From positions 62,001 through 126,000 of the forward strand of contig CAIXUZ010000011.1 in assembly GCA_903922735.1 (NCBI GenBank): a DNA stretch of 64,000 nt, written 5' to 3'. The notes beneath the pieces are model-generated. The model had not been told where the DNA came from. It did no database searches and was given only the letters and a program-made list of their open reading frames with translations. The position numbers and the translations under genes are program-made. The stretch's first letter is position 1, and the number at the start of each line of letters is the position of its first letter. This document shows positions 3,476-19,880 of the stretch, piece by piece. Origin of the DNA: an uncultured Verrucomicrobia subdivision 3 bacterium. Lineage in GTDB: Bacteria > Verrucomicrobiota > Verrucomicrobiia > Limisphaerales > UBA11358.

Positions 3476-3748
3476 ATGGCCCAGGCAATCATGGATCCGG
3501 AAAAAGTGCGGCGGTTCGCCGAGGAACTGCAGCGCTTCAACAGCGACATCGAAAACCGGCTGGTCCTGCTGCACGCGCGGTTCGCGGCGCTCGGCGACAC
3601 CTGGTCGGATCAGGAGCACGAGAAATTTTCCGAGGAGTTCAAGCAGGCGATGAAAGCCCTCAAAAAATTCGTCGAGCTTTCCAAGGAACACACGCCTTAC
3701 CTGTTGCGCAAGGCGCAGCGCATCGAGGAATATCTCAACCAACGCTGA
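3476..3748 (+). CDS. WXG100/ESAT-6-like small helical protein
   Basis: This 90-residue protein is predicted to be two long amphipathic helices joined by a short turn. The turn carries LGDTWSDQEHEKF at about residues 39-51, where the Trp-Ser-Asp sits in the place of the Trp-X-Gly turn of WXG100 proteins. Length, lack of a signal peptide, charge pattern and turn position all match ESAT-6-like secreted substrates or their partners. It is the first gene of a four-gene run ending in an FtsK/EccC-like ATPase, the classical context for type VII secretion. The next gene starts 2 bases after its stop. A weak purine stretch precedes the ATG. WXG100-like is inferred from architecture; the Gly is replaced, so it is a divergent member. 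Confidence 0.72.
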   Translation: MAQAIMDPEKVRRFAEELQRFNSDIENRLVLLHARFAALGDTWSDQEHEKFSEEFKQAMKALKKFVELSKEHTPYLLRKAQRIEEYLNQR

Positions 3749-3750
3749 CC

Positions 3751-4278
3751 ATGGCCCAAGCCCAAGTCACTTCCGTCGAAGCCATCGAGTTGTTCCGGGC
3801 GAAATTCATCGTGTTTCTCGCCCAGGCCCGCAACGTCCTCGAAGAGGCGAGCAACGAGGTGGTGCGGATGCGGCCCTGGCTGCAGGATGAAAAACGCATG
3901 TTCTGGGAACAGGAATTGCGCCGGCGCGCCCGCAAATTGGAGGAGGCCAAGCAGGAATTGTTCAACGCCACGCTTTCCAAATTCCACGAAACCATCGCGC
4001 TGCATCGCATGGCGGTGCAGCGAACGCAACAGTCGGTCCGCGACGTCGAAGTCAAAATAGCGGTCCTGAAAAAATGGGACCGGGAATTGGAAAACCGGTC
4101 AACGCCTTTGCTAAAACAACTGGAGCAGCTGCACGGGTTTCTGACCACCGACATGACGCGGGCGGTCGCCTTCCTCGACCAGACGCTGAAGACTCTGGCC
4201 GCGTATCACGATGTGGCCCCGGCGGGCGGCCAGAAAACCGCCCCCGCCGCGCCGGCAAAAACGGAGGAGCCCACATGA
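3751..4278 (+). CDS. Coiled-coil protein of the FtsK/WXG100-like cassette
   Basis: The ATG at 3751 gives 175 residues. An open frame extends upstream to 3307, but it runs through repeats and across the previous gene in another frame, so I reject that extension. The sequence is almost entirely helical and highly charged (EEASNEVVRMRPWLQDEKRM, then RRRARKLEEAKQELF), with one Pro/Ala-rich tail at residues 155-175. There is no signal peptide and no cysteine. I do not recognise a named family. Length and helical content would suit a long WXG/LXG-like substrate, a chaperone, or an adaptor that pairs with the 90-residue protein. Its stop overlaps the next start (ATGA at 4275-4278), which implies translational coupling. 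Confidence 0.7.
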   Translation: MAQAQVTSVEAIELFRAKFIVFLAQARNVLEEASNEVVRMRPWLQDEKRMFWEQELRRRARKLEEAKQELFNATLSKFHETIALHRMAVQRTQQSVRDVEVKIAVLKKWDRELENRSTPLLKQLEQLHGFLTTDMTRAVAFLDQTLKTLAAYHDVAPAGGQKTAPAAPAKTEEPT

Positions 4279-4487
4279 GCATGAGCGGCAGCAAAAGCCG
4301 GCTGGCCGGACTGACGCGCGATCTCACGCTCCAGTGGGACGAGACCCGGCAGCACTGGCGCGACACCAAGAGCGATGAATTTGACCGCCGGTTCATGAGC
4401 GAACTTACCGCCCTCGTGAACCGCTCGGTCCTCGTCATGGAACAACTCGACGAACTGCTGCTAAAAATCAGGAGCGACTGTGAATAG
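4275..4487 (+). CDS. Small helical protein with a central Trp motif, third gene of the cassette
   Basis: The ATG at 4275 overlaps the preceding stop and yields 70 residues. Two helices flank QHWRDTKSDEFDRRF at about residues 26-40. The pattern W-x-D-x-K-x-x-E-F resembles the turn region of the first gene of the cassette (W-S-D-x-E-H-E-K-F), so this may be a second, shorter WXG-like partner. It has no signal peptide. The ATPase gene starts inside its last codons (GTG at 4480), so production of the two should be coupled. No named family is recognised. The gene would be easy to miss because it is so short, but the overlaps on both sides make it convincing. Confidence 0.7.
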   Translation: MSMSGSKSRLAGLTRDLTLQWDETRQHWRDTKSDEFDRRFMSELTALVNRSVLVMEQLDELLLKIRSDCE

Positions 4488-7400
4488 CCACCTTACCGTC
4501 AACGAAACGCTGGCGCTGCTCGACAAGCTGAAAGGCACCGTCCACGATTTCGCCGCCCGCGAAGAAAAGCTGAACGGCGAATTTCGCGCCGCCACCAATG
4601 CCGAATTAAACGCCCTGGCCGCCCGCAACCAGGCGCGGGAGAACGCCGCCGCCAATCTGGAAATCAAAGCCGATGACGCGTGGGAATCGGAGAAATCCCG
4701 GCTCCAGGCCCGCTTCGAAAAACGCGAGGCGCGAATCGAGCGCACCCAGGCGGCCATGGGCCGGTGGGTGCAGGGCGAAATCAGCGAACGCGACAGCGAA
4801 TGGAAGGACCACACCCGGCAGGAGGTTCAGGCAGCGGAAGTGCGTCGCGACGAAGCGTCAGCCGCCGCCAATACCGCTTACGAAATTTTCCAGCAAAACC
4901 TCAACGTGGCCGCCGGCGTCACCGAACAACTTCAGACCGCCGCCCGTTCGGCCTTCGGCGGCTATGGCCGCTTTCGACGGCTGCTCGCCCACGACCGGCA
5001 ATGGCCGGAGCCGGATCTGGCGGCGGATGAAAACAAGCTGCTGGCCGAACTCCAGAAGCTGCAGGCAAAAATCCCCGGCGACTTGAAGCGCTTCCGCAAG
5101 CTGCCCCTGCCGGTATTTTTTAAATTCCTGCCGCTCTGGCTATGGACTCTGGCCTTGCCCGGCCTGGCGGCCGCGCAGCCGGCCCTGGCCCGATTGGGCG
5201 TAAAGATTAATTCCATCATCGGCATGGAAGGCGCCATGGCCACGCTCGCGGCGGTGGCCGTGATTTATTTCATCGGCGGCCGCACCGCAGCGACGCAAGC
5301 CAAAACCATTGCCGGCGACCTGGCCAAAGTCCGGCGGCTGTTTGACACCGGCATTGAAAAATCCGCCACACATCTCCAGCAGGAACAGGAGCGGATCCAG
5401 ACGGAATTCACGGAAACCCGGCAGCGGTTGAACCAGGAATGGCGGCAGGCCGTCAAAGGCATCAGTTCCGTGCGCGGCTCCCAACCGGCGGTGATTGCGG
5501 AAAAAGCCGCCCGGCTGAGCGGGAAAAACGAGCTCTGGCGCAACGCCGAACTGGAACGCATTCAGGAGCGACACGCCGAAGCGCTGGCGCGGCTGAAAGA
5601 GGCGGATCTGGAAAAAACCCGCCAAATCGCCGAGGCGCATCGGGTCAAGATGGCGCAGATCGAAAGCCATCATCAGCGCCGCTGGCAGGAGCTGGAAACG
5701 AATTGGAACAGCGATGCCCGCTCGCTCGGCGACAGCATCCGCGCCGCCCATGACGCCGCTGAGAAATCGTTTCCACCGTGGGACGCGGCCAGCTGGAAAA
5801 GCTGGAGCCCGCCGGCGAGTTTTCAAAACGCCGCCGAATTCGGGCGGCTGGAGGTGGCGCTCGAAAAATTCGCCGGGCCGCTGCCGAAAGATCCGCGCTT
5901 GCGCTGGCCGGGCCCGCCCCTGATTTCTTTGCCGCTGTCGCTGGTCGGCCCGGCGCAAAGTTCGATTTTATTTGAAACCGGCAAGGCCGGCGGCGAGGAG
6001 GCGGTCAGCGCCATCAACAATCTCATTTTCCGGCTGCTCGCCACGACGCCGCCGGGCAAATTGAGCTTCACCATTTTCGACCCGGTCGGCCTCGGGCAGA
6101 ATTTTGCCGCGCTGACCCATCTTACCGATTATGACGAAAGCAGCCTCAACAGCCGCATCTGGACGCAATCGGGGCAGTTTGAGGAGAAGCTCGCGGAGCT
6201 GAACGAGCACATGGAGAAAATCATCCAGATGTATCTCCGGAACGAATACGCCACCATCGCGGAATACAACGCGCAGGCCGGCAGCGTCGCGGAGAAATAT
6301 CACTTTCTCGTCATCGCCTCGTTCCCGGTGAATTTCAGCGACACGGCGGCGCAGCGTTTGCGCAACATCGCCGCCAACGGGGCGCGCTGCGGGGTTTTCA
6401 CGCTGATCCACTGGGATCAGCGGAACTCGCTGCCGATGGATTTTGTGCCGGACGAACTCCGCAAGAACAGCGTCAGCCTGGTCCGCAAAGAAAGCGGGTT
6501 TGAATTTTCCCACTGGCAGGCACCGGGAATGCGGCTGGTTTTCAGTCCGCCACCGCCGCCGGATTTTGCCACGGAATTTCTGAACCGGGTGGGCGAGCTG
6601 AGCCGGAATTCCAACCGCGTGGAGGTGCCGTTTGAAAATATCGCGCCCGGCGAGGCGGAAATCTGGACGGATGAAACCACGGAACTGCTGCGCGTGCCCA
6701 TCGGCCGTTCCGGTGCGACCAAGCTGCAACAACTCGAAATCGGCAGCGGCACGAGGCAGCACGCGCTCATCGCCGGCAAAACCGGCTCCGGCAAATCCAC
6801 GCTGTTCCACATCATCATCACCAACCTTGCGCTGCGGTGCAGCCCGGAGCAGGTGGAATTTTATCTCGTGGATTTCAAGAAGGGCGTCGAGTTCAAATGC
6901 TACGGCAGCCGCCGCCTGCCGCACGCGCGGGTCGTCGCCATCGAGAGCGACCGGGAATTCGGCCTGAGCGTCTTGCAGCGCGTGGACGATGAATTGCGAC
7001 GGCGCGGCGATTTGTTCCGCAAGGCGGGCGCACAGGATCTGGCCGGCTACAAGCGGTCCTTGCGGACGGGCACCGCTGCGGAACCGGCCGGCGAACCAAT
7101 GCCGCGCGCCCTTTTGATGATTGACGAGTTCCAGGAATTTTTCACCGAGGAAGACCGGATTTCGCAGGGCGCGGCGGTGCTGCTGGACCGCATCGTCCGG
7201 CAGGGCCGGGCGTTCGGCATTCACGTGATCCTCGGCTCGCAAACGCTCGGCGGCGCCTACACGCTGGCCCGCGCGACCATCGGACAAATGGTCATCCGCA
7301 TCGCGCTTCAGTGCAATGAGGCCGACGCCTACCTCATCATGGATCAGGACAATCCCGCGCCGCGCCTGCTGTCACGGCCGGGCGAAGGCATTTACAATGA

Positions 7401-8394
7401 CGCCGCCGGTTCGATCGAGGGCAACAGCCCGTTTCAAGCGGTCTGGCTTTCCGACAAAACCCGCGATGGCTACCTGGCAAAAATCCGCGAACGCGCGGAT
7501 AAAAGTATAAATCAATATCCCGGGCCGATCGTATTTGAAGGCAATGCGCCGGCGGACGTGCGGGAAAATCTTCCGCTGCGAACCGTGCTGGGGAAAACTG
7601 CAGATCAAGTTCCCGTCCAAGCCGGGGCCTGGCTGGGAGCGCCCAATTCCATCAAAGGCCCGACGGAAGCGATTTTCAAGCGGCAGAGCGGCAGCAATCT
7701 GCTGGTCGTCGGCCAAAGCGAGGAGCGGACGCTGACCATTTTGTCGGTGGCGCTGGTTTCACTGGCCGCGCAATTTCCCCGGAACGCCGCGCGCTTCGTC
7801 GTGCTCGACAGCACGCCACCGGGATTTCCGCAGCGGGAATTTTTGCAGCGCATCGCCACCAGCGTGCCGCACGAAGTCACCCAAGCTGGCAATAGCAATC
7901 TGATGGAAGTGATGGCGGGCCTGGCGGAAGAGTTGAGCCGGCGCGCGGAAAACGAATCGTCCGGGCCGGAGATTTTTGTGCTGATCCAAAGCCTGCAAAA
8001 TTTCAAGAAGCTGCGGCAGGAAGATGAATTCAGCTTTTCGAGCAGCAGCAGCGCGCCAAACCCCGCCGCCATCCTGCAGAGCCTGATCAACGAGGGACCG
8101 GCGCGCGGGATGCACGTCATCGCCACCTGCGACACTTACAACAACGTGAACCGTTTCATCGGACGGAAGGCGCTCACGGAATTTGAAATGCGCGTCGTCT
8201 TCCAGATGAGCGCGAGCGATTCGGCCAGCCTGATTGATGCGCCGGACGCCGGCACGCTGGGTCTGCATCGGGCGCTGTATTTCAACGACCGCGAAGGGTA
8301 TCTCGAAACGTTCCGCCCCTACGCGCAGCCGGACCATGGCTGGCTGGAAACCGTGGCGCAGGCACCGGCCTTCGCCGCCGGCAAAGTCAATTGA
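4480..8394 (+). CDS. Membrane-anchored FtsK/SpoIIIE (EccC-like) ATPase with three ATPase modules
   Basis: The GTG at 4480 opens a 1304-residue protein. Residues 1-200 and about 275-440 are charged coiled coil, and two hydrophobic segments at about 213-231 and 251-267 anchor it in the inner membrane. Module 1 (about 475-655) has the FtsK-like fold signature but no P-loop; it includes PPGKLSFTIFDPVGLGQNFA and HMEKIIQMYLRNEYATIAEY. Module 2 (about 730-1010) is intact, with Walker A GKTGSGKST at 766-774 and Walker B LLMIDEF with D882 and E883. Module 3 (about 1060-1295) is degenerate: its P-loop position reads GQSEERT and its Walker B lacks the acids. Triple modules on a membrane stalk are the design of EccC/EssC motors of type VII secretion. 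DNA translocation is the alternative, but the three small WXG-like neighbours argue for protein export. Confidence 0.82.
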   Translation: MNSHLTVNETLALLDKLKGTVHDFAAREEKLNGEFRAATNAELNALAARNQARENAAANLEIKADDAWESEKSRLQARFEKREARIERTQAAMGRWVQGEISERDSEWKDHTRQEVQAAEVRRDEASAAANTAYEIFQQNLNVAAGVTEQLQTAARSAFGGYGRFRRLLAHDRQWPEPDLAADENKLLAELQKLQAKIPGDLKRFRKLPLPVFFKFLPLWLWTLALPGLAAAQPALARLGVKINSIIGMEGAMATLAAVAVIYFIGGRTAATQAKTIAGDLAKVRRLFDTGIEKSATHLQQEQERIQTEFTETRQRLNQEWRQAVKGISSVRGSQPAVIAEKAARLSGKNELWRNAELERIQERHAEALARLKEADLEKTRQIAEAHRVKMAQIESHHQRRWQELETNWNSDARSLGDSIRAAHDAAEKSFPPWDAASWKSWSPPASFQNAAEFGRLEVALEKFAGPLPKDPRLRWPGPPLISLPLSLVGPAQSSILFETGKAGGEEAVSAINNLIFRLLATTPPGKLSFTIFDPVGLGQNFAALTHLTDYDESSLNSRIWTQSGQFEEKLAELNEHMEKIIQMYLRNEYATIAEYNAQAGSVAEKYHFLVIASFPVNFSDTAAQRLRNIAANGARCGVFTLIHWDQRNSLPMDFVPDELRKNSVSLVRKESGFEFSHWQAPGMRLVFSPPPPPDFATEFLNRVGELSRNSNRVEVPFENIAPGEAEIWTDETTELLRVPIGRSGATKLQQLEIGSGTRQHALIAGKTGSGKSTLFHIIITNLALRCSPEQVEFYLVDFKKGVEFKCYGSRRLPHARVVAIESDREFGLSVLQRVDDELRRRGDLFRKAGAQDLAGYKRSLRTGTAAEPAGEPMPRALLMIDEFQEFFTEEDRISQGAAVLLDRIVRQGRAFGIHVILGSQTLGGAYTLARATIGQMVIRIALQCNEADAYLIMDQDNPAPRLLSRPGEGIYNDAAGSIEGNSPFQAVWLSDKTRDGYLAKIRERADKSINQYPGPIVFEGNAPADVRENLPLRTVLGKTADQVPVQAGAWLGAPNSIKGPTEAIFKRQSGSNLLVVGQSEERTLTILSVALVSLAAQFPRNAARFVVLDSTPPGFPQREFLQRIATSVPHEVTQAGNSNLMEVMAGLAEELSRRAENESSGPEIFVLIQSLQNFKKLRQEDEFSFSSSSSAPNPAAILQSLINEGPARGMHVIATCDTYNNVNRFIGRKALTEFEMRVVFQMSASDSASLIDAPDAGTLGLHRALYFNDREGYLETFRPYAQPDHGWLETVAQAPAFAAGKVN

Positions 8395-9174: not shown

Positions 9175-10896
9175 ATGGCGATCACGCCGGTTCAGGATTC
9201 CCGGCAGTTGCTGGCACGCATGGCGGCGTCCCGGCAACTGTCTTCGCTGGATGCCGACACGCTCGCGAAGCTGCCGCTACACAGCGAAGAAGAAATTCTC
9301 CGCTGGCTGGCGGATGAATACGGGCTCAGTTTCACGACGCTCGAAGACGTGGAACCGGATCGTCAGATTCTCTCGCTCTTTCCCGCGCGCATCCTGCTGA
9401 AGGAGGAATTGCTTCCGCTGCAACGGGTGAACGGCGCGGTGGAGGTTGCCACCAGCCGGCTTTTTGCCACGCAAGGATTCGACGCGCTTAAAACTTTGAC
9501 CGGCCTGAACCTCAAGCCGGTGCTGGCCTCGACCGAAGCCATCCAGCGCGAAATCAAGAAGCGCCTCGGTGTCGGCGCCGACACCATCGGCACCCTTGAC
9601 GAGGAAAAAGGCCTGCAAGTTCTGGACGAAAATGCCGAGGGCAACGATCTCGACAGCGGCGAGGAAGACGAGGCCTCCATCATCCGCTTCGTCAACCAGG
9701 TCTTGAAAGACGCGATTGAACTGCGTGCGTCCGACGTCCACCTCGAGCCGTTCGAGGATGAATTCCGCATCCGCTATCGCATTGACGGCGAATTACAGGA
9801 AGTTCCCGTGCCCGCCCAACTCAAGCGTTTTCAGCCGGCGATTGTTTCGCGCGTGAAAATCCTGAGCCATCTCAACATCGCGGAAAAACGCCTGCCGCAA
9901 GACGGCCGCATCAAGGTGCGCATCGAACAGGCCGAGGTGGACATCCGGGTTTCGGTGATTCCGATGCTGCACGGCGAAGCCGTGGTGATGCGCTTGTTAC
10001 GGCAGAATTCCACCCTGCGCGGCCTGGGTGAAATCGGGATGAACCAGCGGGAGCTGGAACATTTTCAACACGTTCTCGGCATGCCGCACGGAATCATTCT
10101 GGTCACCGGCCCGACCGGCTCCGGCAAAACTTCCACACTCTATACGGCGCTGAACGAAATCAACGATGCCGTCCGCAAAATCATCACCGTGGAAGACCCG
10201 GTGGAATATCAGCTCAAAGGCGTCAATCAAATCCAGGTCAATGAAAAATCCGGCCTGACGTTTGCGCGTGGACTGCGCTCGATTCTTCGCCACGACCCGG
10301 ACGTGATTCTCATCGGCGAAATCCGCGATGCGGAAACCGCGCAGATTGCCGTGCAAGCGTCGCTCACCGGCCATCTGGTGTTTTCCACGCTGCACACCAA
10401 CGATGCGCCCGGCGCGCTCACGCGCCTGGTGGACATGGGCGTGGAGCCCTATCTCGTCGCATCGTCGCTCGAAGCGGTGCTCGCCCAGCGCCTGGTCCGC
10501 GTGCTTTGCCCGCACTGCAAACAGGCCGACAATTCTGCGACAGCGCAGACGTTGAAAGCCAAGCTTGGCATCGCAGCGGACAAAGTCATTTTTAAATCCG
10601 TGGGCTGCCGCGAATGCCGCAACACCGGCTTCTTCGGGCGACACGCCATTTTTGAGTGGATGGACACGGACGAGGAAATCCGCCAGTTGATTTTGAAATC
10701 CGCCTCCACGGACCAAATCCGCAACGCCGCGCGCCGCGCCGGCATGACGACGCTCGCCGAGGACGGCTGGCGGCTGGTCGCGGCCGGAGTGACGACGGTC
10801 GAGGAAGTGTTGAGCGTCACGACGGCGAAGGAAGTCGAGCGCTCGCAGAAAGTCGAATCCGGGGAAACCGCCGCGAGCCTCGCGGTGGCGAGATAG
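9175..10896 (+). CDS. gspE: Type II secretion / type IV pilus assembly ATPase GspE
   Basis: This 573-residue cytoplasmic hexameric ATPase powers pseudopilus assembly. Residues 1-140 are the GspE N-terminal domain that contacts GspL. The arginine-rich ASDVHLEPFEDEFRIRYRID and the Walker A box GPTGSGKT at 312-319 follow. The Walker B region (HDPDVILIGEIRD), a His box (STLHTNDAP), and a tetracysteine metal site, CPHC at 445-448 and CREC at 478-481, complete the family signature. Length and order are normal. It is the first machinery gene of the operon. The stop is followed by a 116-bp gap filled by a heptamer repeat before gspF. A PilB-type role is possible by sequence, but the gspG-M set next to it supports type II secretion. 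Confidence 0.93.
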   Translation: MAITPVQDSRQLLARMAASRQLSSLDADTLAKLPLHSEEEILRWLADEYGLSFTTLEDVEPDRQILSLFPARILLKEELLPLQRVNGAVEVATSRLFATQGFDALKTLTGLNLKPVLASTEAIQREIKKRLGVGADTIGTLDEEKGLQVLDENAEGNDLDSGEEDEASIIRFVNQVLKDAIELRASDVHLEPFEDEFRIRYRIDGELQEVPVPAQLKRFQPAIVSRVKILSHLNIAEKRLPQDGRIKVRIEQAEVDIRVSVIPMLHGEAVVMRLLRQNSTLRGLGEIGMNQRELEHFQHVLGMPHGIILVTGPTGSGKTSTLYTALNEINDAVRKIITVEDPVEYQLKGVNQIQVNEKSGLTFARGLRSILRHDPDVILIGEIRDAETAQIAVQASLTGHLVFSTLHTNDAPGALTRLVDMGVEPYLVASSLEAVLAQRLVRVLCPHCKQADNSATAQTLKAKLGIAADKVIFKSVGCRECRNTGFFGRHAIFEWMDTDEEIRQLILKSASTDQIRNAARRAGMTTLAEDGWRLVAAGVTTVEEVLSVTTAKEVERSQKVESGETAASLAVAR

Positions 10897-10907
10897 AATG
10901 AAGAAAC

Positions 10908-11000
10908 GTTCAACATTCAACGCTCAACGCTCAACGCCCAATGGCTGCGTGGCGCCGCTCCTTGAAGGGTCGGCGTTGAATGTTGGCTGTTGGATGTTTT
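10908..11000. repeat. Heptamer-periodic inverted-repeat element between gspE and gspF
   Basis: The left arm has five 7-base units at 10908-10942 (GTTCAAC, ATTCAAC, GCTCAAC twice, GCCCAAT). After a 30-base loop, the right arm at 10973-11000 has complementary-type units GCGTTGA, ATGTTGG, CTGTTGG and ATGTTTT. The transcript could form a long imperfect hairpin between two operon genes, perhaps tuning the gspE/gspF ratio. It ends 12 bases before the gspF start. Confidence 0.7.
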
Positions 11001-11012
11001 CCTGATTTTCAA

Positions 11013-12266
11013 ATGCCGACGTTTTCCTACAAAGCATTGCAAGCCGACGGCAAAATGGCCGAAGGCGTGCTGGAGGCCGCCGGCCGTCCCGATGCATTGC
11101 GGCAAATGGAAACGCTCGGTTTGCGTCCGGTGAACCTTGCCGAAAAAAACGCGGCGGGAAAAACCGGTTCCGCTCCGGCGGGCACGCCCGGCAATCTCGG
11201 CAACGTTTCTTTCAAGTTCGAGTCCAAAAAAGTTTCGGCGAAGGAACTGGAAAATTTCACCCGTTTGCTTTCCAGCCTGCTCGCGGCCGGCGTGCCGCTG
11301 AGCCGCGCCCTGGTGATTCTTTACAAGGAATCCTCGTCGCCGGCGGCGCAGGCAAAGTGGAAGCAAGTGCACGACCTCGTGGTGGACGGCATGTCGCTGG
11401 CCAACGCGATGGCGCAATCACCGGACACATTCCCGCGCGTCTATGTCGCAATGGTGGAGGCGGGCGAGGCGGGCGGATTTTTGGACGTGGTGCTGGCGCA
11501 GATCGCCGATTTTCAGACGCGGGAGAAGGAGCTGAAATCCAAGGTGCTCACGGCGATGATTTATCCGTGCATCCTGTTGTTTCTCGCGCTGGTGGTGCTG
11601 ACGGTGCTCCTGGTTTTCTTCATCCCGAAATTTCAAAAGGTTTTTGCCAGCGTCCACGGTTCGTTGCCGCTGATCACCCAACTGGTCATCGGCCTGAGCC
11701 ATCTCGTGCGGTCGTACGGGGTATTCGTCGCCCTGGGAATTGGCGCGGCGGGCTTTCTGGTGCGGGCGTGGTTTGTGTCCGAAAAAGGCAAGCGCTCGTG
11801 GGAAGGCATCGTTTTGAAATCGCCGCTCGTCGGCCCGCTCATCGCGCAATTCGCGATGGCCCGTTTCTGCCGGATGCTGGGCACGCTGCTCAGCGCCGGC
11901 GTGCCGCTGGTGCAGGGCTTGAATGTCTCGCGCCGGTCCATCGGCAACCAGATTCTGGTGGATGCCGTCGGCCAGTCCATCGAACGCGTGCAGCAGGGCG
12001 GCAGGCTCGGCCAGAGTCTGGGTGATTGCAAAGCGCTTTTTTCCGGCGCGGTCCTGGAAATGATTTCCGTCGCGGAAGAGAGCGGCAAACTGGATGTGGA
12101 ATTAATCCGCGTCGCCAGCGTCACGGAAGTGGATCTGGACCGCAATTTGAAGACCGCCGTCGCCTTTGCGGAACCGCTGATGCTGTTTCTCATCGCCGGA
12201 TTCATCGGCGTCATTTTCATCTCGATGCTGCTGCCCGTATTCTCATTGCAGGATTACATCAAATAA
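11013..12266 (+). CDS. gspF: Type II secretion inner membrane platform protein GspF
   Basis: The ATG at 11013 gives MPTFSYKALQADGKM, the usual GspF/PilC beginning. An open frame from 10980 would add 11 residues encoded by the repeat, so I reject that start. The 417-residue protein has a short N-terminal domain, a Gly/Ala-rich linker at about 50-65, and two GspF repeats (LENFTRLLSSLLAAGVPLSR and ARFCRMLGTLLSAGVPLVQG) separated by membrane segments. A last hydrophobic helix sits near the end (LMLFLIAGFIGVIFISMLLP). It forms the membrane platform on which GspE acts. Twelve bases separate it from gspG. Confidence 0.93.
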   Translation: MPTFSYKALQADGKMAEGVLEAAGRPDALRQMETLGLRPVNLAEKNAAGKTGSAPAGTPGNLGNVSFKFESKKVSAKELENFTRLLSSLLAAGVPLSRALVILYKESSSPAAQAKWKQVHDLVVDGMSLANAMAQSPDTFPRVYVAMVEAGEAGGFLDVVLAQIADFQTREKELKSKVLTAMIYPCILLFLALVVLTVLLVFFIPKFQKVFASVHGSLPLITQLVIGLSHLVRSYGVFVALGIGAAGFLVRAWFVSEKGKRSWEGIVLKSPLVGPLIAQFAMARFCRMLGTLLSAGVPLVQGLNVSRRSIGNQILVDAVGQSIERVQQGGRLGQSLGDCKALFSGAVLEMISVAEESGKLDVELIRVASVTEVDLDRNLKTAVAFAEPLMLFLIAGFIGVIFISMLLPVFSLQDYIK

Positions 12267-12278
12267 CCCGGAACCTTT

Positions 12279-12710
12279 ATGAACATCCAAATCAAACCAC
12301 TCATTCAAACAACGAAACTGCGCCGCGCTTTCACGCTGGTCGAAATGCTGCTGGTCGTCACCATCATCGGCATTCTCGCGGCGCTGGTGATCCCGAAAAT
12401 CGTTGGGCGCAGCGAACAAGCCCGCGCCACGGCCGCGCACGCCGACATTTCCTCCATCAAGACGGCGCTCGATGCATTCGAGGTGGACAACGGCTTTTAT
12501 CCGAAGAGCCTCCAGGACCTGGTGACCGCGCCGAGCAACGCCAAGAACTGGCACGGGCCGTATCTGGAAAAAGTTCCGCAGGATCCCTGGGGGAATAATT
12601 ACGTTTACTATTTCCCCGGCAAGCACAACCCGAGCGCCTTCGACCTCTTGTCAATCGGACCGGACGCCAAGGAAGGCACGGAAGATGATGTTGGCAACTG
12701 GACGAAGTAA
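12279..12710 (+). CDS. gspG: Major pseudopilin GspG
   Basis: This 143-residue protein has a short basic leader, then RRAFTLVEMLLVVTIIGILA, which is the prepilin peptidase site followed by the hydrophobic N-terminal helix with the conserved Glu at +5. The residue before the cleaved bond is Ala instead of Gly. The C-terminal part has the GspG signature (ALDAFEVDNGFYPKSLQDL and VPQDPWGNNYVYYFPG) with an acidic loop able to hold calcium. It builds the pseudopilus shaft. The stop is followed directly by the gspH start. Confidence 0.92.
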   Translation: MNIQIKPLIQTTKLRRAFTLVEMLLVVTIIGILAALVIPKIVGRSEQARATAAHADISSIKTALDAFEVDNGFYPKSLQDLVTAPSNAKNWHGPYLEKVPQDPWGNNYVYYFPGKHNPSAFDLLSIGPDAKEGTEDDVGNWTK

Positions 12711-13289
12711 ATGAAATTGCGAATTACGAATTGTGAATTGCGAATGCCGTCTACGCGAACGACCGGCTTCCGTTCATTGTTTGAAATTCGCAGTTCAAAA
12801 ATCGCCTCCGCCTTCACGCTGGTCGAATTGATTCTCGTGCTGGCATTGCTGGTGATTGTCACGTCGCTCGCGGCTCCGGCGCTGTCGAATTTTGTGCGCG
12901 GGCGGGCGCTGGATTCCGAGGCGCGGCGGCTGGCGGCGCTGATGCACGCCGGCCAGAGCCGCGCGGTTTCGGAAGGTGCGACGATGGTGCTGTGGGTGGA
13001 CGAGAAGCAAGGCGCCTACGGCCTGCAAGCCGAGACGAGCGGGCAGGACGGGGATGCGAAGGCGGAGAATCTGAATCTGGATGCCACGCTGCAAATCGCG
13101 GTGGCGAGCGGCAGCGCGGGAACGCCGGCGACGTTTCAGAATTTGCCGGCGGTAAAATTCACGGCGGATGGCGCGGTGGATGAAAACAGTCCGCAGACTT
13201 TAAAATTGACGGACAGCGCCGGGTTTTCGCGCTGGCTGGTGCTCGGCAAAACGCGGCTGGGATATGAAATTCGCGACACCGAGAAATAG
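12711..13289 (+). CDS. gspH: Minor pseudopilin GspH-like
   Basis: The product has 192 residues if the ATG at 12711 is used. The alternative ATG at 12744 removes eleven residues that are encoded by a heptamer repeat (LRITNCELR). The processing site is IASAFTLVELILVLALLVI at about 31-49, so either start leaves an unusually long leader of about 23-34 residues; typical leaders are under 10-15. The remaining sequence has a GspH-like pattern (SEARRLAALMHAGQSRAVSE, then MVLWVDEKQGAYGL). It is a minor pseudopilin of the tip complex. It overlaps gspI by 26 bases. Confidence 0.82.
   Translation: MKLRITNCELRMPSTRTTGFRSLFEIRSSKIASAFTLVELILVLALLVIVTSLAAPALSNFVRGRALDSEARRLAALMHAGQSRAVSEGATMVLWVDEKQGAYGLQAETSGQDGDAKAENLNLDATLQIAVASGSAGTPATFQNLPAVKFTADGAVDENSPQTLKLTDSAGFSRWLVLGKTRLGYEIRDTEK
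12715..12805. repeat. Heptamer-periodic element inside the gspH leader
   Basis: Units AATTGCG, AATTACG, AATTGTG, AATTGCG occupy 12715-12742 in register 7. An imperfect complementary stretch lies at about 12784-12805 (ATTCGCAGTTC region). Both arms are translated as part of the gspH leader if the first ATG is used. The base composition of the units differs from the C/A-rich elements elsewhere, but period and geometry are the same. Confidence 0.6.
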
Positions 13290-13695
13290 CCGGAATGCGG
13301 CGCAGCGCCGCTGCCGCGCATTCACGCTGGCCGAGGTGCTGGCGGCGATGCTGTTTCTCGCCATCGTGATCCCGGCGGCGATCGAGGCGATGCACATCGC
13401 CAGCCTCGCGGGCGAAGTCGGCGCGCGAAAAGGTTCGGCGGCGCGCATTGCGGACCGGGTTTTGAATGAAAGCCTGGTCATGACGAATTGGAACACCGGC
13501 CAGCAAAAAGGCACGGTGACGGAAGGCGGCCGGGAATTCAACTGGACGCTGTCCAGCCAGGCCTGGCCGCAGGATTCGGCCCTGCAGATGGTGACCGCGG
13601 AAGTGAAGTTCACCGCGCAGGGCAAAGATTATTCGGTGAAGCTGGAAACGCTGGCCACCCAGCCGGGGGTGACCACGATGAATTTAACGAAGTGA
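13264..13695 (+). CDS. gspI: Minor pseudopilin GspI-like
   Basis: This 143-residue protein starts inside gspH. It has a basic leader with the processing site CRAFTLAEVLAAMLFLAIVI at about 18-37; the residue before the bond is Ala. The C-terminal globular part (EFNWTLSSQAWPQD and VKFTAQGKDYSVKLETL) is short, as in GspI. It probably joins GspJ and GspK in the tip complex. Its stop overlaps the GTG start of gspJ. The assignment rests on position between gspH and gspJ, the size and the N-terminal motif. Confidence 0.8.
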   Translation: MKFATPRNSRNAAQRRCRAFTLAEVLAAMLFLAIVIPAAIEAMHIASLAGEVGARKGSAARIADRVLNESLVMTNWNTGQQKGTVTEGGREFNWTLSSQAWPQDSALQMVTAEVKFTAQGKDYSVKLETLATQPGVTTMNLTK

Positions 13696-14390
13696 AAATT
13701 GGAACAAACAAACAAGGCGCATTCACGCTGGTCGAGATGATTCTCGCCATCGGCGTGGCCGCCATCGTGCTGGCGGCGGTGAACGCCGTGCTGTTCACGG
13801 CGCTGCATTTGCGCCGGGTGACGACGGAAGCGGTGGATGCCGCCACGCCGCTGGATCAGGCGGTGATGTTCCTGCGCCGTGATTTGCAATGCGTTGTCAC
13901 GCCGACCAACGGCACGAGCAAATTTTTATCCGGCGCATTCAGAGCCGGCACGATCAACAGCATGGGCGCGAGCGAGCCGGTGGCGGTAGAAATGTTCACC
14001 GCGACCGGCGCGTTGAGCGTCAATTCGCCGTGGGCGGACATTCAGCGGGTGACTTATGAATTAAAAAATTCCACGGAGGCCGCCGGCCAGCGCGATTTGT
14101 TTCGCAGCGTGACCCGGAATCTGCTTTCGATCAGCGGCACCCCGGAGGTGGAGGATCAACTGATGCTGAGCGGCGTCGAGAGCGTAAAGTTCTCCTGCTA
14201 TGACGGCTCGCGCTGGCAGGAAGCCTGGGACACCAGTGATGCAAACTCACTTTACACCAATTTACCGATCGCGGTGCGCGTGGAAATCCAGATGACCGGC
14301 GGCAACGCCAAAGAGCCGATCCAGATGGTCGTGCCGATTGATTGCGTGGCGCGAACGAACATGGTTTTGACCAGCGCGACGAGAGGCTGA
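13692..14390 (+). CDS. gspJ: Minor pseudopilin GspJ-like
   Basis: A GTG at 13692 overlaps the gspI stop and gives 232 residues starting VKIGTNKQGAFTLVEMILAI. A longer in-frame opening from 13488 lies entirely within gspI and is rejected. The peptidase site has Ala at -1 and Glu at +5. The globular part contains PLDQAVMFLRRDLQCVV, typical of GspJ-type minor pseudopilins in which a helix follows the transmembrane segment, and an end with several beta strands. It partners GspI and GspK. gspK begins two bases after the stop. Confidence 0.82.
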   Translation: MKIGTNKQGAFTLVEMILAIGVAAIVLAAVNAVLFTALHLRRVTTEAVDAATPLDQAVMFLRRDLQCVVTPTNGTSKFLSGAFRAGTINSMGASEPVAVEMFTATGALSVNSPWADIQRVTYELKNSTEAAGQRDLFRSVTRNLLSISGTPEVEDQLMLSGVESVKFSCYDGSRWQEAWDTSDANSLYTNLPIAVRVEIQMTGGNAKEPIQMVVPIDCVARTNMVLTSATRG

Positions 14391-14392
14391 GA

Positions 14393-15817
14393 ATGAACAT
14401 TCAACCTTCAACATTCAACGCCCAACGCCCAACGCCCAACGGCGTTCGGTTCGGTGCTTCATTGAAGGTTGAAGGTTCAATGTTGAAGGTTGGACGTTTC
14501 CGTAAATCGCAATCCGGTTCCGTGCTGATCATCGTGCTTTGGGTGAGCATCGGCCTGGTCAGCATCGCGCTGTATTTTGCCAACCAGATGACTTACGAAA
14601 TGCGCGCTTCGGATAATCGCGTGAGCGGCCTCATGGCGGATCAAGCCATCGAAGGCGCGGCGCGTTACGTCGGTCTCGCGCTGCTGAACTTTGCGACGAA
14701 CGGCGCCGTGCCGGACAACACGCAATTCCGCTGTGAAGCCGTGCCGGTCGGCGACGCCAAGTTCTGGCTCATCGGCCGCGACCCGGCAGGCGGCAATGCC
14801 ACCGATCCGTATTTCGGCCTGGTGGACGAGGGCGGCAAACTGAATTTGAACAATGTCAGCACCAATGTTTTTCAATATCTGCCGAACGTCTATTCTGATT
14901 TTGCCGACGCGATCATGGACTGGCGCGGCACGAACGGCGTGGTGGCGCTCGATTACACGTCGCTCGGCTACGCGCCGAAATATGCCCCGTTTGAGACGGT
15001 GGATGAGCTGCGCCTTGTTTATGGCGCCTCGGTGGAAATGCTCGCCGGCGAGGATTTGAACCGCAACGGCGTCGCTGATAAAAACAAAAAAGACTTGAAC
15101 AGCAACGGCGCGCTGGATTCCGGCCTGCTGGAATACACCACGGTTTACACGCGCGAGCCGAATTTTCATTCGGACAGCACGAGGCTGACCAACATGAACA
15201 CGGCGTCGAGCGCCCAGGTCCGGTCGCTCCTGCAAAATGCCAGCATCAGCACTTCCTATGTGCCCCAGCTGATGGCGACCAACCCGACGGCGCGGCCTTA
15301 TCGCGGATTTTTGGGGCTGGCGCTGCGGTGTAAAAACATCGGCATGAGTTCGGATGATTTCGCCCGGCTGGCCAGCAATGTGACGACGAGCACCAACACC
15401 TATTTTCGCGGCCGCGTAAACGTCAACACCGCCAATGCCGAAGTGCTAACGGCTTTGTTCATGGGCGTAAACGTGGATGAATCAACAGCGATCAACGCGG
15501 CGCAGACGCTTGTCACATATCGCCAGCAGAATCCCGGCAATCTCGGCTCCATCGCGTGGATTATAGACTCACTGGGCAACACCAGTCCGGTGATCACCGG
15601 ACTGGCGCGCGGCGATTACGTCACCACGCGCAGCTACCAGTTCACGGCGGACATCGCGGCGGTCGGGCCGTATGGGCGCGGATATCGCCGCGTGAAATTG
15701 ATTTTCGACGTGAGCAATGGAACGCCCATCATCTTGTACCGGCAGGATTTGAGCCGGCTGGGCTGGGCGCTCGGTGAAACAGTGCGGGAAAACATGGTCG
15801 CGAAGAACACGGAATGA
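14393..15817 (+). CDS. gspK: Type II secretion minor pseudopilin GspK
   Basis: From the ATG at 14393 the product has 474 residues; from the ATG at 14480 it has 445 and begins MLKVGRFRKSQSGSVLIIVL. The first 30 residues of the long version are repeat-encoded (QPSTFNAQRPTPNG), so the shorter start is more natural. GspK is the large pseudopilin that caps the tip and lacks the +5 Glu; here SVLIIVLWVSI follows Gly, as expected. Inside are the saposin-like helical domain, DEGGKLNLNNVSTNVFQYLP, and a Ca-type loop DLNRNGVADKNKKDLNSNGA at about residues 222-241. It overlaps gspL by 4 bases. Confidence 0.85.
   Translation: MNIQPSTFNAQRPTPNGVRFGASLKVEGSMLKVGRFRKSQSGSVLIIVLWVSIGLVSIALYFANQMTYEMRASDNRVSGLMADQAIEGAARYVGLALLNFATNGAVPDNTQFRCEAVPVGDAKFWLIGRDPAGGNATDPYFGLVDEGGKLNLNNVSTNVFQYLPNVYSDFADAIMDWRGTNGVVALDYTSLGYAPKYAPFETVDELRLVYGASVEMLAGEDLNRNGVADKNKKDLNSNGALDSGLLEYTTVYTREPNFHSDSTRLTNMNTASSAQVRSLLQNASISTSYVPQLMATNPTARPYRGFLGLALRCKNIGMSSDDFARLASNVTTSTNTYFRGRVNVNTANAEVLTALFMGVNVDESTAINAAQTLVTYRQQNPGNLGSIAWIIDSLGNTSPVITGLARGDYVTTRSYQFTADIAAVGPYGRGYRRVKLIFDVSNGTPIILYRQDLSRLGWALGETVRENMVAKNTE
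14399..14495. repeat. Heptamer-periodic inverted repeat overlapping the 5' end of gspK
   Basis: 14399-14440 is made of ATTCAAC, CTTCAAC, ATTCAAC and three GCCCAAC units. 14461-14495 is made of ATTGAAG, GTTGAAG, GTTCAAT, GTTGAAG and GTTGGAC. The two arms are roughly complementary around a 20-base loop. The right arm carries both a GAAGG purine tract and an ATG at 14480, so the element can supply a start site for gspK. Confidence 0.75.
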
Positions 15818-17265
15818 AACCTGATTTTAAATTCAAATTCGGCCGAGGCAAAACGCCGACCACGGTGGTCGGCCTGACGCTCGACGGCAGCCGGCTTGAC
15901 GGCGTGGTGCTGAAACGCACGAATGGTTCGCTGCAGCAGCTGCAGACATTTTCCGCCGCGCTCACGCTCGACCCGCTGACCGCCGCGCCGGAGCTGGTCG
16001 GACGTGAAATCCGCAATCATCTGGACGCCGCCGGCATCCGCGAGCGCGATTGCGTGCTCGGCGTGCCGTTGAAACTGGTTTTGACGGCGCAAACGGAATT
16101 GCCGCCGCTGCCGGAGGCGGACGCGACGAGCCTGATGCAGCTCGAGGCGGAAAAAGGATTCCATGCGGACGTGGCGACGTTGCAAATCGCCCATTCCCGC
16201 ACGCCGCTGGCCGGCGATAAAAAACATGTTTTGCTGGCCGGCATTCCCAGCACGCAGCTTACCGCGCTGGAAAATGTTTTGGCGGCGGCCAAACTGAAGC
16301 CGGCCAGCTTTGCATTGGGCGCGACGGCGCTGCAACCCGCATCGCGCCAGAGCTCCAATGGCGTGCTGGCGCTGGTGATCGGCGAAACCAATGTCGGTTT
16401 GCAAATCACCAACGGCGGCGTGGTGGCCTTGCGCGCTCTGGAAGGCGCGGTGGAAAACACGGCGGGCCGGCTGACGCTGCATCCGGATCTGGTGGCGCGC
16501 GAAACGCGCGTGACGCTGGGGCAACTGTCCGCCGAATTGCGCGCGGCAGTGAAACGCATCCGCATTTATGGTCCGCGCGACCTGGCGCAATTGCTGGCGG
16601 ACGATTTGGAGCTGAAGCTGGAGGCGCTGGATTTGAAAGTGGAAATGGTTTCCGCTTATGCACCGGATGAATTTGGCGTGACGCTGCCGGCGGGCGCATC
16701 GGTTTCCGCCGCGTTCAGCCTGGCGGCGCGGCTGCTGACGGGCGAAAAGCCGGGGTTTGAATTTCTGCCGCCGAAGCCAAACTTCGTCGAACAGTTCGTG
16801 ACGAAATATTCTTCCGGCCGGCTGCGCAAGTCCGGCGCGGTGGCGGCGGGAATCGCGGCGCTGGTCGCGGGAGTTTTTCTATTCCAGCAATACCAGTTGT
16901 GGAGCCTGCGTTCGCAGTGGTCGAAGATGCAGATGAAAGTCGCCGGACTCGAAACCATTCAAAACCAGATTCATCAATACCGGCCGTGGTATAGCGGCAC
17001 CTACAACAATCTGGCGGTGTTGCGGCAGTTATCCCTGGCGTTTCCCGAAGACGGCGCGGTGACGGCGAAGAACATCACCATCCGCGACGGCCGCACGGTG
17101 ACTTGCGCCGGCACGGCGAGAGACAACGCGTCGTTGCTGGCGGTGGAGGCGAAATTGAGCGCGCTGCCGGGCGTGACGGCGGTGCATCGCGAGCAGAGCC
17201 GCGGCAACAAGCCGCCGATCCAGTTTGTGTTCAGCTTCAAACTCAACAACGGAGGTGCGGAGTGA
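15814..17265 (+). CDS. gspL: GspL-like type II secretion assembly protein (PilM/PilN-type)
   Basis: In this 483-residue protein, residues about 15-330 are an actin-like PilM/GspL cytoplasmic domain (TVVGLTLDGSRLDGVVLKR near the start, VLALVIGETNVGLQI in the middle). A membrane helix lies at about 345-365 (SGAVAAGIAALVAGVFLFQQ), and a periplasmic PilN/GspL-type ferredoxin-like domain ends the chain. It links the ATPase GspE to the periplasmic GspM. The start overlaps gspK and the stop overlaps the gspM start. An expected role in recruiting GspE is known for the family; nothing unusual is seen apart from the long Ala/Gly-rich hinge. Confidence 0.82.
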   Translation: MKPDFKFKFGRGKTPTTVVGLTLDGSRLDGVVLKRTNGSLQQLQTFSAALTLDPLTAAPELVGREIRNHLDAAGIRERDCVLGVPLKLVLTAQTELPPLPEADATSLMQLEAEKGFHADVATLQIAHSRTPLAGDKKHVLLAGIPSTQLTALENVLAAAKLKPASFALGATALQPASRQSSNGVLALVIGETNVGLQITNGGVVALRALEGAVENTAGRLTLHPDLVARETRVTLGQLSAELRAAVKRIRIYGPRDLAQLLADDLELKLEALDLKVEMVSAYAPDEFGVTLPAGASVSAAFSLAARLLTGEKPGFEFLPPKPNFVEQFVTKYSSGRLRKSGAVAAGIAALVAGVFLFQQYQLWSLRSQWSKMQMKVAGLETIQNQIHQYRPWYSGTYNNLAVLRQLSLAFPEDGAVTAKNITIRDGRTVTCAGTARDNASLLAVEAKLSALPGVTAVHREQSRGNKPPIQFVFSFKLNNGGAE

Positions 17266-17804
17266 AAATGAAAATTGAGAACCGCCAGCAGTTTCTCGTG
17301 GTATTGACCATCGCGGTCGTGGCGCTGTTCGTGGCGGTGAATTTTATTCTGGAACCGCTCGGCGGCTGGTGGTCGTCGCGGCAGGCGCAGATCAAGGCGT
17401 TGCAGAAGCAAGTCAGCGAAGGCCAGCAGCTCAGTAAACGCGAGACCGGCGTTCGCAGTCGCTGGAACTGGATGCAGGTCAATGCGCTGCCCGCCAACCC
17501 GTCGCAGGCGGAACAGCGGTTTTTGAAGGCGCTGGACGGCTGGTCGCGCGAGGCGGGTGCGGAGCTGACGAGCATTATGCCGCAGTGGAAAAGCGATTCG
17601 ACGAATTATCTGACGCTGGCGTGCCGCGTGGAATCGGCGGGCGACCTGGCGACGTTGAGCAAATTTCTCTACGCGCTGGAAAAAGGGCCGATGGCGCTCA
17701 AGGTGGACTCGGTGGAATTGACTTCCCGCGACGCCGGCGGCCAGCAGATGACGCTCAGTTTGGAAATCAACGGACTGGCTTTGATGGCCAGCGACAAAAA
17801 ATGA
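17262..17804 (+). CDS. gspM: GspM-like inner membrane protein
   Basis: A GTG at 17262 overlaps the gspL stop and lies 5 bases after GGAGGT, a strong ribosome site; the ATG at 17268 is the alternative. The product has 180 or 178 residues: a short cytoplasmic start, a membrane helix (LVVLTIAVVALFVAVNFIL), a coiled segment and a small periplasmic alpha/beta domain (DLATLSKFLYALEKGPMALK, then VDSVELTSRD). Size, topology and position after gspL identify it as GspM/PilO-like. It overlaps the next start by four bases. Confidence 0.78.
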   Translation: MKMKIENRQQFLVVLTIAVVALFVAVNFILEPLGGWWSSRQAQIKALQKQVSEGQQLSKRETGVRSRWNWMQVNALPANPSQAEQRFLKALDGWSREAGAELTSIMPQWKSDSTNYLTLACRVESAGDLATLSKFLYALEKGPMALKVDSVELTSRDAGGQQMTLSLEINGLALMASDKK

Positions 17805-18421
17805 AAACCATGCGAACCCAATTTGTTTTTGCGCTGGCGGTCGTGCTGGCGGGCGAGGTGCATGGGCAGGCAAACCGGAACAATCCCGGCCCGACGGATT
17901 ACACGGCGTTCAGCCGGTTCATCACGGACCGGAACATTTTCGATCCGAACCGCCAGCCGCATTACACCTCGACCCGAACACAGACGACCCGGCCGCGGAC
18001 CCGCTCAGCTTCGACGCCGGCATTCACGCTGGTTGGCACGATGGCTTACGAAAAGGGTTTTTTCGCCTTTTTCAGCGGCAATGACACGGAATTGAAAAAA
18101 GTCCTGAGCGTGTCGGAAAAAATCGCGGACTACACGGTGACGGAAATTGTGGCGGGCCGCGCCCGGATTGAATCGGCGGACGGCAAACAAAAGCTGGAGC
18201 TAAAAGTCGGCGACGTGATGCACCAGGAAGCCGGCGGCTGGCAGTTTTCCGGTGCGGCGGAAATTCCCCCCGGAGCGCCCGCGAGTGAGACCGGCACGGC
18301 ACCGGCGGGCGCGGCGGAAAATTCCAGCGAACGCAGCACGCCCAGCGTGCCGGTGGCCGCGGGGGCGCAGAGTGAAATTCTGAAACGACTGATGGAAAAA
18401 AGAGCAAAGGAGAATCAATGA
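17801..18421 (+). CDS. GspC-like periplasmic protein of the type II secretion operon
   Basis: The ATG at 17801 gives 206 residues; an upstream extension to 17585 lies inside gspM and is rejected. Residues 1-24 are hydrophobic (FVFALAVVLAGEVHGQ) and may be a cleaved signal or an anchor. FITDRNIFDPNR at about residues 41-52 resembles the start of the GspC/PilP homology region, and PAFTLVGTMAYEKGFFAFF to VLSVSEKIADYTVTEI forms its beta core. The tail is Pro/Ala-rich, without a PDZ domain. GspC normally binds the N0 domain of the secretin, and the secretin N-domain gene follows directly with a four-base overlap. PilP is the alternative name. Confidence 0.7.
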   Translation: MKTMRTQFVFALAVVLAGEVHGQANRNNPGPTDYTAFSRFITDRNIFDPNRQPHYTSTRTQTTRPRTRSASTPAFTLVGTMAYEKGFFAFFSGNDTELKKVLSVSEKIADYTVTEIVAGRARIESADGKQKLELKVGDVMHQEAGGWQFSGAAEIPPGAPASETGTAPAGAAENSSERSTPSVPVAAGAQSEILKRLMEKRAKENQ

Positions 18422-19860: not shown

Positions 19861-19880
19861 AATTTAACGCGATAAAAATT

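Follow-up and report, generated by a model that had tools for sequence, protein, structure and literature searches.

A co-retained four-gene cassette of Verrucomicrobiota and Planctomycetota as a candidate minimal type VII-like export machine

A stretch of 64,000 nucleotides (hereafter the window; contig CAIXUZ010000011.1, positions 62,001 to 126,000) from the 4.48 Mb assembly GCA_903922735.1 of an uncultured Verrucomicrobia subdivision 3 bacterium was analysed, and we report a cassette of four genes in it, coding for a WXG100-family protein (P1), a predicted alpha-hairpin protein (P2), a candidate short WXG-type protein (P3) and an EccC-like ATPase. The four genes form one co-retained unit, and we lean towards reading them as a minimal type VII-like export machine in a bacterium of the outer-membrane type. 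P2 is likely the carrier of this machine and appears to have no warhead. The strongest evidence that the four proteins act together is that the genes are retained together even where they are not linked.

The features of the cassette, with window coordinates, are:
3476..3748, + strand: P1, 90-amino acid (aa) WXG100-family protein with a PF06013 match
3602..3610, + strand: W43-x-D45 turn of P1; both residues invariant in 34 aligned sequences
3751..4278, + strand: P2, 175-aa predicted alpha-hairpin protein with disordered tail; likely related, as a trunk, to larger cassette proteins elsewhere
4275..4487, + strand: P3, 70-aa candidate shortened WXG-type protein
4356..4364, + strand: W28-x-D30 of P3, which profile comparison aligns with W43-x-D45 of P1
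4480..8394, + strand: EccC-like ATPase, 1304 aa, GTG start
5113..5277, + strand: hydrophobic stretch, ATPase residues ~212-266, predicted membrane hairpin in the N-terminal part
6775..6798, + strand: Walker A GKTGSGKS, residues 766-773, middle module; each residue at least 93% conserved in aligned ATPases
7111..7131, + strand: Walker B-like LLMIDEF, residues 878-884

Conservation and co-retention of the four genes

The original prediction had described four coupled genes on one strand, and the open reading frames (ORFs) at 3476-8394 (+) confirmed their order, place, strand and sizes, with overlaps of 4 bases (P2/P3) and 8 bases (P3/ATPase) and a gap of 2 bases between P1 and P2. Related loci were fetched with the ATPase as query (the best 80 of 108 relatives) and the other members were then located by tblastn. 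The complete set was found in 60 of the 80 loci (P1 and P3 each in 69, P2 in 70 and a complete ATPase ORF in 72), and the 4-base and 8-base overlaps were retained in 46 and 41 of the 60 full loci, respectively; the gene order is therefore not due to chance. Many of the missing members are accounted for by contig ends. With the upstream flank present, no match was obtained for P1 at L016, for P1 and P2 at L038 and for all but the ATPase at L063, and a single divergent member was missed at L073 and L084 (P3) and at L077 (P2), the last being later recovered by a profile search of a region of that kind (L126). Median identities to the window members over the 60 loci were 73% (P1), 41% (P2), 44% (P3) and 50% (ATPase). 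The closest named relative among the best 80 is a metagenome-assembled genome labelled Verrucomicrobia subdivision 3 (L005), with an ATPase 93% identical.

The P1 profile was positive in 16 of 288 genomes sampled across the phylum, 61 of 116 genomes of the order and 24 of 199 Planctomycetota. At a presence threshold of 1e-100, the ATPase profile was positive in 63 of the 116 genomes of the order, namely the 61 with P1 plus G324 and G384, and in exactly the 24 P1-positive planctomycetes. Fisher tests of co-occurrence, in which shared ancestry is ignored, gave 1.8e-31 for P1 with the ATPase in the planctomycetes and 3.7e-31 in the second test. P2 and P3 were each found in 23 of the 24 positive planctomycetes and in none of 20 P1-negative ones tested (of 175 negatives); 23 of the 24 keep all four. 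The genes are dispersed in six of these 24 genomes, lying in four places in G513 and G495, three in G432, G545 and G602 and two in G560 (contig ends prevent a judgement for G484, G532 and G547). Because of this dispersal the co-occurrence is more than linkage. The cassette thus holds a WXG100 protein genetically tied to an EccC/EssC-type ATPase, which is the minimal definition of a type VII system.

In the exceptional planctomycete (G515, locus L114), P1 is followed by an ATPase frame of ~1000 aa and a frame of 983 aa, with no P2 or P3 match; this is a variant either without both partners or with unrecognisable ones. Among three other members of the host's genus examined (G371, G329 and G397), G329 and G397 have neither P1 nor the ATPase, so the cassette is patchy even within a genus. 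Some of the cassette-bearing records belong to named isolates, among them Verrucomicrobium sp. BvORR034 (L026) and Aeoliella straminimaris (L082).

The four proteins

When the small proteins were searched against family profiles, as had been suggested with the original prediction, P1 fell within WXG100, P3 stayed under the cut-off, and P2 gave no Pfam match over cut-off and is not an LXG protein. P1 matched Pfam PF06013 with an E-value of 9.3e-11 (42.3 bits, cut-off 27.3) and reached 29.5 bits with NCBIfam WXG100_ESAT6, under its cut-off of 44.85. Its nearest solved chain is Helicobacter pylori HP0062 (3fx7; 4e-5 with the single sequence, 7.1e-12 with the family profile), after which the family profile matches EsxB and EsxA chains. 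P1 is 90 aa long in 68 of 69 loci, shows 49-99% identity across 33 aligned orthologues and has 17 invariant positions besides W43 and D45. The predicted WXG100-type central turn was right for P1 in the form W-x-D rather than W-x-G (WQD, WSD, WRD and WND cover 69 of 69 loci), and P3 has a W-x-D as well.

P1 is the most conserved cassette member in 60 of 60 loci. YxxxD/E is a C-terminal export motif of WXG proteins, although not a universal one, and it was found in the last 45 residues of P1 in 0 of 70 sequences. A passage of PMC11217815 ascribes a signal to 'some' WXG100 proteins. Since P1 is the best conserved member and has no YxxxD/E, it looks more like a core component than like a free effector, and the original description of the small proteins as WXG100 substrates is not supported for P1. 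Only a single WXG100 gene was present per genome in the six genomes tested. In the planctomycete loci L106, L107 and L111 an orphan P1 has as its neighbour, encoded on the other strand, a similar gene of 626 aa, with the ATPase elsewhere.

P3 has invariant W21, W28, D30 and C69 in 43 sequences, of which one matches PF06013, at an E-value of 0.063. The best Protein Data Bank match of its profile was EsxA (2vs0), in the same register and not significant (E 0.23). The first profile comparison of P1 with P3 gave P 5.6e-4 and a probability of 30%; after planctomycete sequences had been added, hhalign gave a score of 30.8, P 1.1e-5 and a probability of 82%, against maxima of 16.3 in 60 column shuffles and 23.4 in 60 heptad-block shuffles, and 22.1 for P1 with P2 as an equally helical control. 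In planctomycete ORF sets of 2252 and 943 ORFs, the P3 profile reached P1 genes at 3.4e-5 to 9.6e-4 and the P1 profile reached P3 genes at ~8e-4; no other ORF passed 1e-3, and beneath that line the P1 profile also touched two P2 ORFs (0.0016 and 0.0084). That P3 is a shortened WXG-type protein is supported but not proved, and because its relation to P1 is seen by profile comparison alone, we term it WXG-type rather than a Pfam member.

The AlphaFold2 prediction of P2 is a long alpha-hairpin (helices 9-76, 79-132 and 134-155) with a disordered tail, at a mean predicted local distance difference test score of 88.8; a fold search was uninformative. W109 and Y152 are invariant in 43 sequences. The length of P2 is 159-200 aa in 70 of 70 loci, which leaves no room for the C-terminal domain of an LXG or other polymorphic toxin, and at most 43 residues lie beyond the trunk match in 16 of 16 planctomycete P2 proteins. 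Because each of the 23 planctomycetes with P2 has one trunk match per genome, there are no sister genes with warheads at that sensitivity. In view of its length, short tail and single match per genome, P2 appears to be trunk-only and is therefore likely a carrier without a warhead.

The ATPase was assigned to the FtsK/EccC class in the original prediction, and this was borne out by PF01580 (1.2e-32), by NCBIfam scores of 120 bits for EccCa (1e-34), 98 for EccCb, 90 for EssC and 29 for FtsK, and by EccC 4nh0 as top solved chain both by sequence and by Foldseek (E 7.7e-31, 952 columns). Its tandem modules and nearest scores place it with EccC/EssC-type motors; as the equivalog cut-offs are far higher (509, 347 and 778 bits for EccCa, EccCb and EssC, respectively), it is by sequence a distant EccC/EssC relative and not an equivalog. 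The central module scores 76, 48 and 10 bits against the three ATPase domains of EccC, the first being nearest, and it also superposes well on FtsK; the ATPase tree was too poor to place the protein. The cassette ATPase profile gives 121 bits to Streptomyces EccCa and 57 to the host's own, separately encoded FtsK (G000:C25). Three modules are predicted, with one Walker A in the middle one, and exactly one GxxxxGK[ST] occurs in 72 of 73 ATPases. In the hydrophobic stretch, segment 246-264 exceeds the threshold and the first segment was judged by eye; 54 of 60 orthologues have at least two hydrophobic segments within residues 1-450, a region that is poorly conserved (mean column conservation 0.32-0.42). 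No FHA domain was found by Pfam.

Relatives and the P2 slot

A plasmid search with P1 returned two records. In Helicobacter sp. NHP19-012 the order is a WXG protein of 89 aa, a nuclease of 340 aa (Pfam WHH 1.1e-11, colicin-DNase 9.8e-9), an SMI1/KNR4 neighbour (SUKH-1), a 77-aa protein and an FtsK protein of 823 aa; in Caballeronia sp. SBC2 it is a WXG protein of 89 aa, proteins of 436, 113 and 76 aa and an FtsK protein of 927 aa, past which lie CARF, VWA, PP2C, kinase, AAA and ParA genes. The cassette profile scores the two ATPases at 235 and 383 bits, respectively. Gene order makes the slots of P2 and of these larger proteins equivalent. The P2 slot is the site of a larger protein in these relatives, in one case a clearly toxin-like nuclease with an immunity gene.

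The plasmid search with the ATPase returned 42 records, none covering more than 80% of its length. Rhodococcus sp. AH-ZY2 has a 1322-aa ATPase followed by proteins of 314 and 73 aa and a WXG-type protein of 87 aa, and in Deinococcus actinosclerus two WXG-type proteins, a 326-aa helical protein and a 144-aa protein lie beside the ATPase. On a second Rhodococcus plasmid the ATPase was present and a clear WXG neighbour was not found. The Deinococcus 144-aa protein matched P3 with 19.5 bits (block-shuffle maximum 16.4), and none of the P3-slot proteins of Helicobacter and Caballeronia nor the 73-aa Rhodococcus protein matched P3.

A relationship of P2 to the trunks of these larger proteins is supported, though not proved, by profile comparisons. 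The Caballeronia 436-aa protein belongs to a family of near-constant length with 161 relatives (the best 120 of the 161 examined). Residues 1-215 of this family compared with the P2 profile gave a score of 38.9 (P 2.4e-5, probability 76%; maximum of 60 heptad-block shuffles 31.0), and at the end of the alignment its Y198 (at least 98% of 115 sequences) pairs with the invariant Y152 of P2. The first 150 residues of the Rhodococcus 314-aa protein matched P2 at 26.0 bits (maximum of 1000 heptad-block shuffles 15.0) and at 19.6 bits with a second profile (block-shuffle maximum 9.6); beyond this trunk the protein has a further stretch without a Pfam name. Other results are weaker or negative. With the single sequence, the 436-aa protein matched P2 weakly (11.5 bits where shuffles reached at most 8.0, and 10.2 where they reached at most 8.9), and the P2 profile ranked the Caballeronia WXG protein (19.1 bits) above it (3.8 bits). 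With a planctomycete-only P2 profile the Rhodococcus trunk reached just 18.1 bits against a maximum of 17.0, the Deinococcus 326-aa protein scored a weak 7.7 bits, and the N-terminus of the Helicobacter nuclease did not match P2.

The 436-aa family (L127, 15287-16597; P0005-P0124) has a helical N-terminal half and conserved D322, E351, K353 and Q370 in its C-terminal half, which by eye we take to resemble a PD-(D/E)xK nuclease; no Pfam match over cut-off was obtained for the four members scanned. In a Rhodococcus pseudokoreensis plasmid (L131, 2415-9285) a related ATPase lies with Hsp70, TPR and GrpE genes. A passage of PMC4978471 also names a DnaK homologue alongside the WxG100 family for a gene cluster of H. 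pylori, so that a link to chaperones may recur.

No neighbour of the cassette is widely conserved, the commonest real one being shared by 7 of the 80 loci, and no toxin gene is a conserved neighbour across them. Directly downstream of the cassette in the window (9175-21116, +) lies a type II secretion-like cluster with GspE, GspG, GspH, GspJ and GspK-like genes and a secretin split over two ORFs, which is not conserved as a neighbour at the other loci.

Competing readings and known systems

In the type VII-like machine that we favour, the hydrophobic hairpin would hold the ATPase in the inner membrane, where it may oligomerise as EccC does, and ATP would be consumed by the middle module. P1 and P3 may engage the motor as a WXG-type helical pair or each self-paired, and P2 would be the carried or docking 'trunk'. 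Because the verrucomicrobial and planctomycete trunk seems to end in a short tail without a warhead, no built-in toxin would be delivered; the cargo could be P2 or P1 themselves, or an unlinked cargo for which P2 acts as docking arm. A bolder version is put forward tentatively: the cassette may represent a type VII-like family of its own, built of four components (WXG, trunk, mini-WXG and EccC-like motor) and found across diderm and monoderm phyla, domesticated in Verrucomicrobiota and Planctomycetota, where the warhead was lost and a standing, toxin-free cell function would be retained even when the genes scatter.

The four proteins could instead form a non-secretory machine of the inner membrane, in which P1-P3 serve as scaffold for an ATPase that, in the manner of FtsK, acts inside the cell to move or remodel DNA or parts of the envelope. 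We consider this unlikely, although the fit of the central module to FtsK, a conservation of P1 too high for a typical effector and the lack of a toxin gene as conserved neighbour all agree with it. It was anticipated in the original prediction that an ATPase grouping with DNA translocases, together with cassettes always sitting with DNA-processing genes, would speak against export of WXG substrates. Neither was borne out: the ATPase scores higher against EccCa than against FtsK, the cassette profile likewise favours a Streptomyces EccCa over the host FtsK, and at most 7 of 80 loci share any neighbour, whether DNA-processing or other, with the caveat that the Caballeronia relative does adjoin CARF, AAA, ParA and kinase genes. 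WXG100 partners are moreover a hallmark of type VII systems, and the Helicobacter slot holds a nuclease with its immunity gene. That same slot, together with the many WXG/LXG toxins tied to type VII secretion in passages of PMC3482391, would suit a type VII-like weapon, whose P1, P3 and ATPase deliver toxins encoded elsewhere with P2 as adaptor or chaperone. We hold this to be quite improbable, since each of the 23 positive planctomycetes has exactly one P2-trunk match (trunk-less toxins were not searched for) and one WXG100 gene per genome in six of six. Small helical proteins are easily over-read, and unrelated helical genes might adjoin an FtsK-like ATPase by accident; this chance neighbourhood has a negligible probability and is refuted by the co-occurrence, all four being present in 60 of 80 loci and kept, even when dispersed, by 23 of 24 planctomycetes. 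The minimal type VII reading of the original prediction is supported in part: P1 is a WXG100 protein, the ATPase is EccC-like by profile score and the phyletic pattern makes the four a unit, but there is no support for P1 as a WXG substrate.

Most descriptions of type VII secretion concern Bacillota and Actinomycetota. WXG100 with FtsK/SpoIIIE proteins in certain Gram-negatives is recorded as unconfirmed as a secretion system in a passage of PMC10765036, which cites Sutcliffe 2011 and Unnikrishnan 2017; a passage of PMC3397514 describes HP0062 as a dimeric hairpin with a WRD motif and an FtsK/SpoIIIE protein in its gene cluster, and one of PMC4978471 deals with a TerY-P island and its WxG and FtsK genes. 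Gram-negative terms found no match in PMC3935865. The original claim of novelty in Gram-negatives is thus half right: WXG and FtsK pairs are already in print there, but among the matches listed in the open-licence literature none was found to describe the four-part module, P3 or a trunk free of toxin. The cassette adds a set of four defined parts that is retained jointly in two phyla and includes a candidate for a short WXG partner as well as a carrier, P2, that may be a toxin trunk minus its toxin. With the named isolates it can be tested whether a motor of the WXG/EccC type functions in a diderm envelope, and what role it has where it does not serve as a weapon.

With the type VII secretion system (T7SS) variant T7SSa/ESX the cassette shares a WXG100 protein and a tandem-module FtsK/SpoIIIE ATPase; it differs in its Walker A in the central module alone, its poorly conserved long N-terminus and a P1 without YxxxD/E. 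With T7SSb and T7SSc-j, whose hosts are Bacillota and Actinomycetota unlike the host here, it shares the core of WXG100 and EssC-type ATPase, and according to passages of PMC11217815 the T7SS variants of these two phyla have an ATPase and WXG100 as the core that they share, with the WXG protein of T7SSi unassignable. The original prediction noted that no other ESX or Firmicutes part is nearby; YukD/EsaB and YukC/EssB are missing from the whole host genome (controls detected in B. subtilis), and T7SSb membership was rejected on this ground. The EccB profile gave no match in the host genome, its positive control being equally silent, and EccD, EccE, mycosin, EssA and EsaA were not searched for genome-wide. 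FtsK/SpoIIIE DNA translocases resemble the ATPase in the fold of the central motor module, but their sequence-profile score is weaker and the host FtsK is separate. The nearest known systems are WXG/FtsK cassettes from Campylobacterota and Pseudomonadota, with HP0062/HP0066 and the TerY-P islands as published cases. Like the cassette of the window, those of Helicobacter and Caballeronia start with a WXG protein (89 aa), fill the P2 slot and have a 76-77-aa protein right before the ATPase. Their P2 slots hold a larger protein and one further gene (a nuclease with SUKH in Helicobacter, proteins of 436 and 113 aa in Caballeronia), their P3-slot proteins differ from P3 and their ATPases have 823 and 927 aa against 1304, and the window cassette, unlike them, stands alone.
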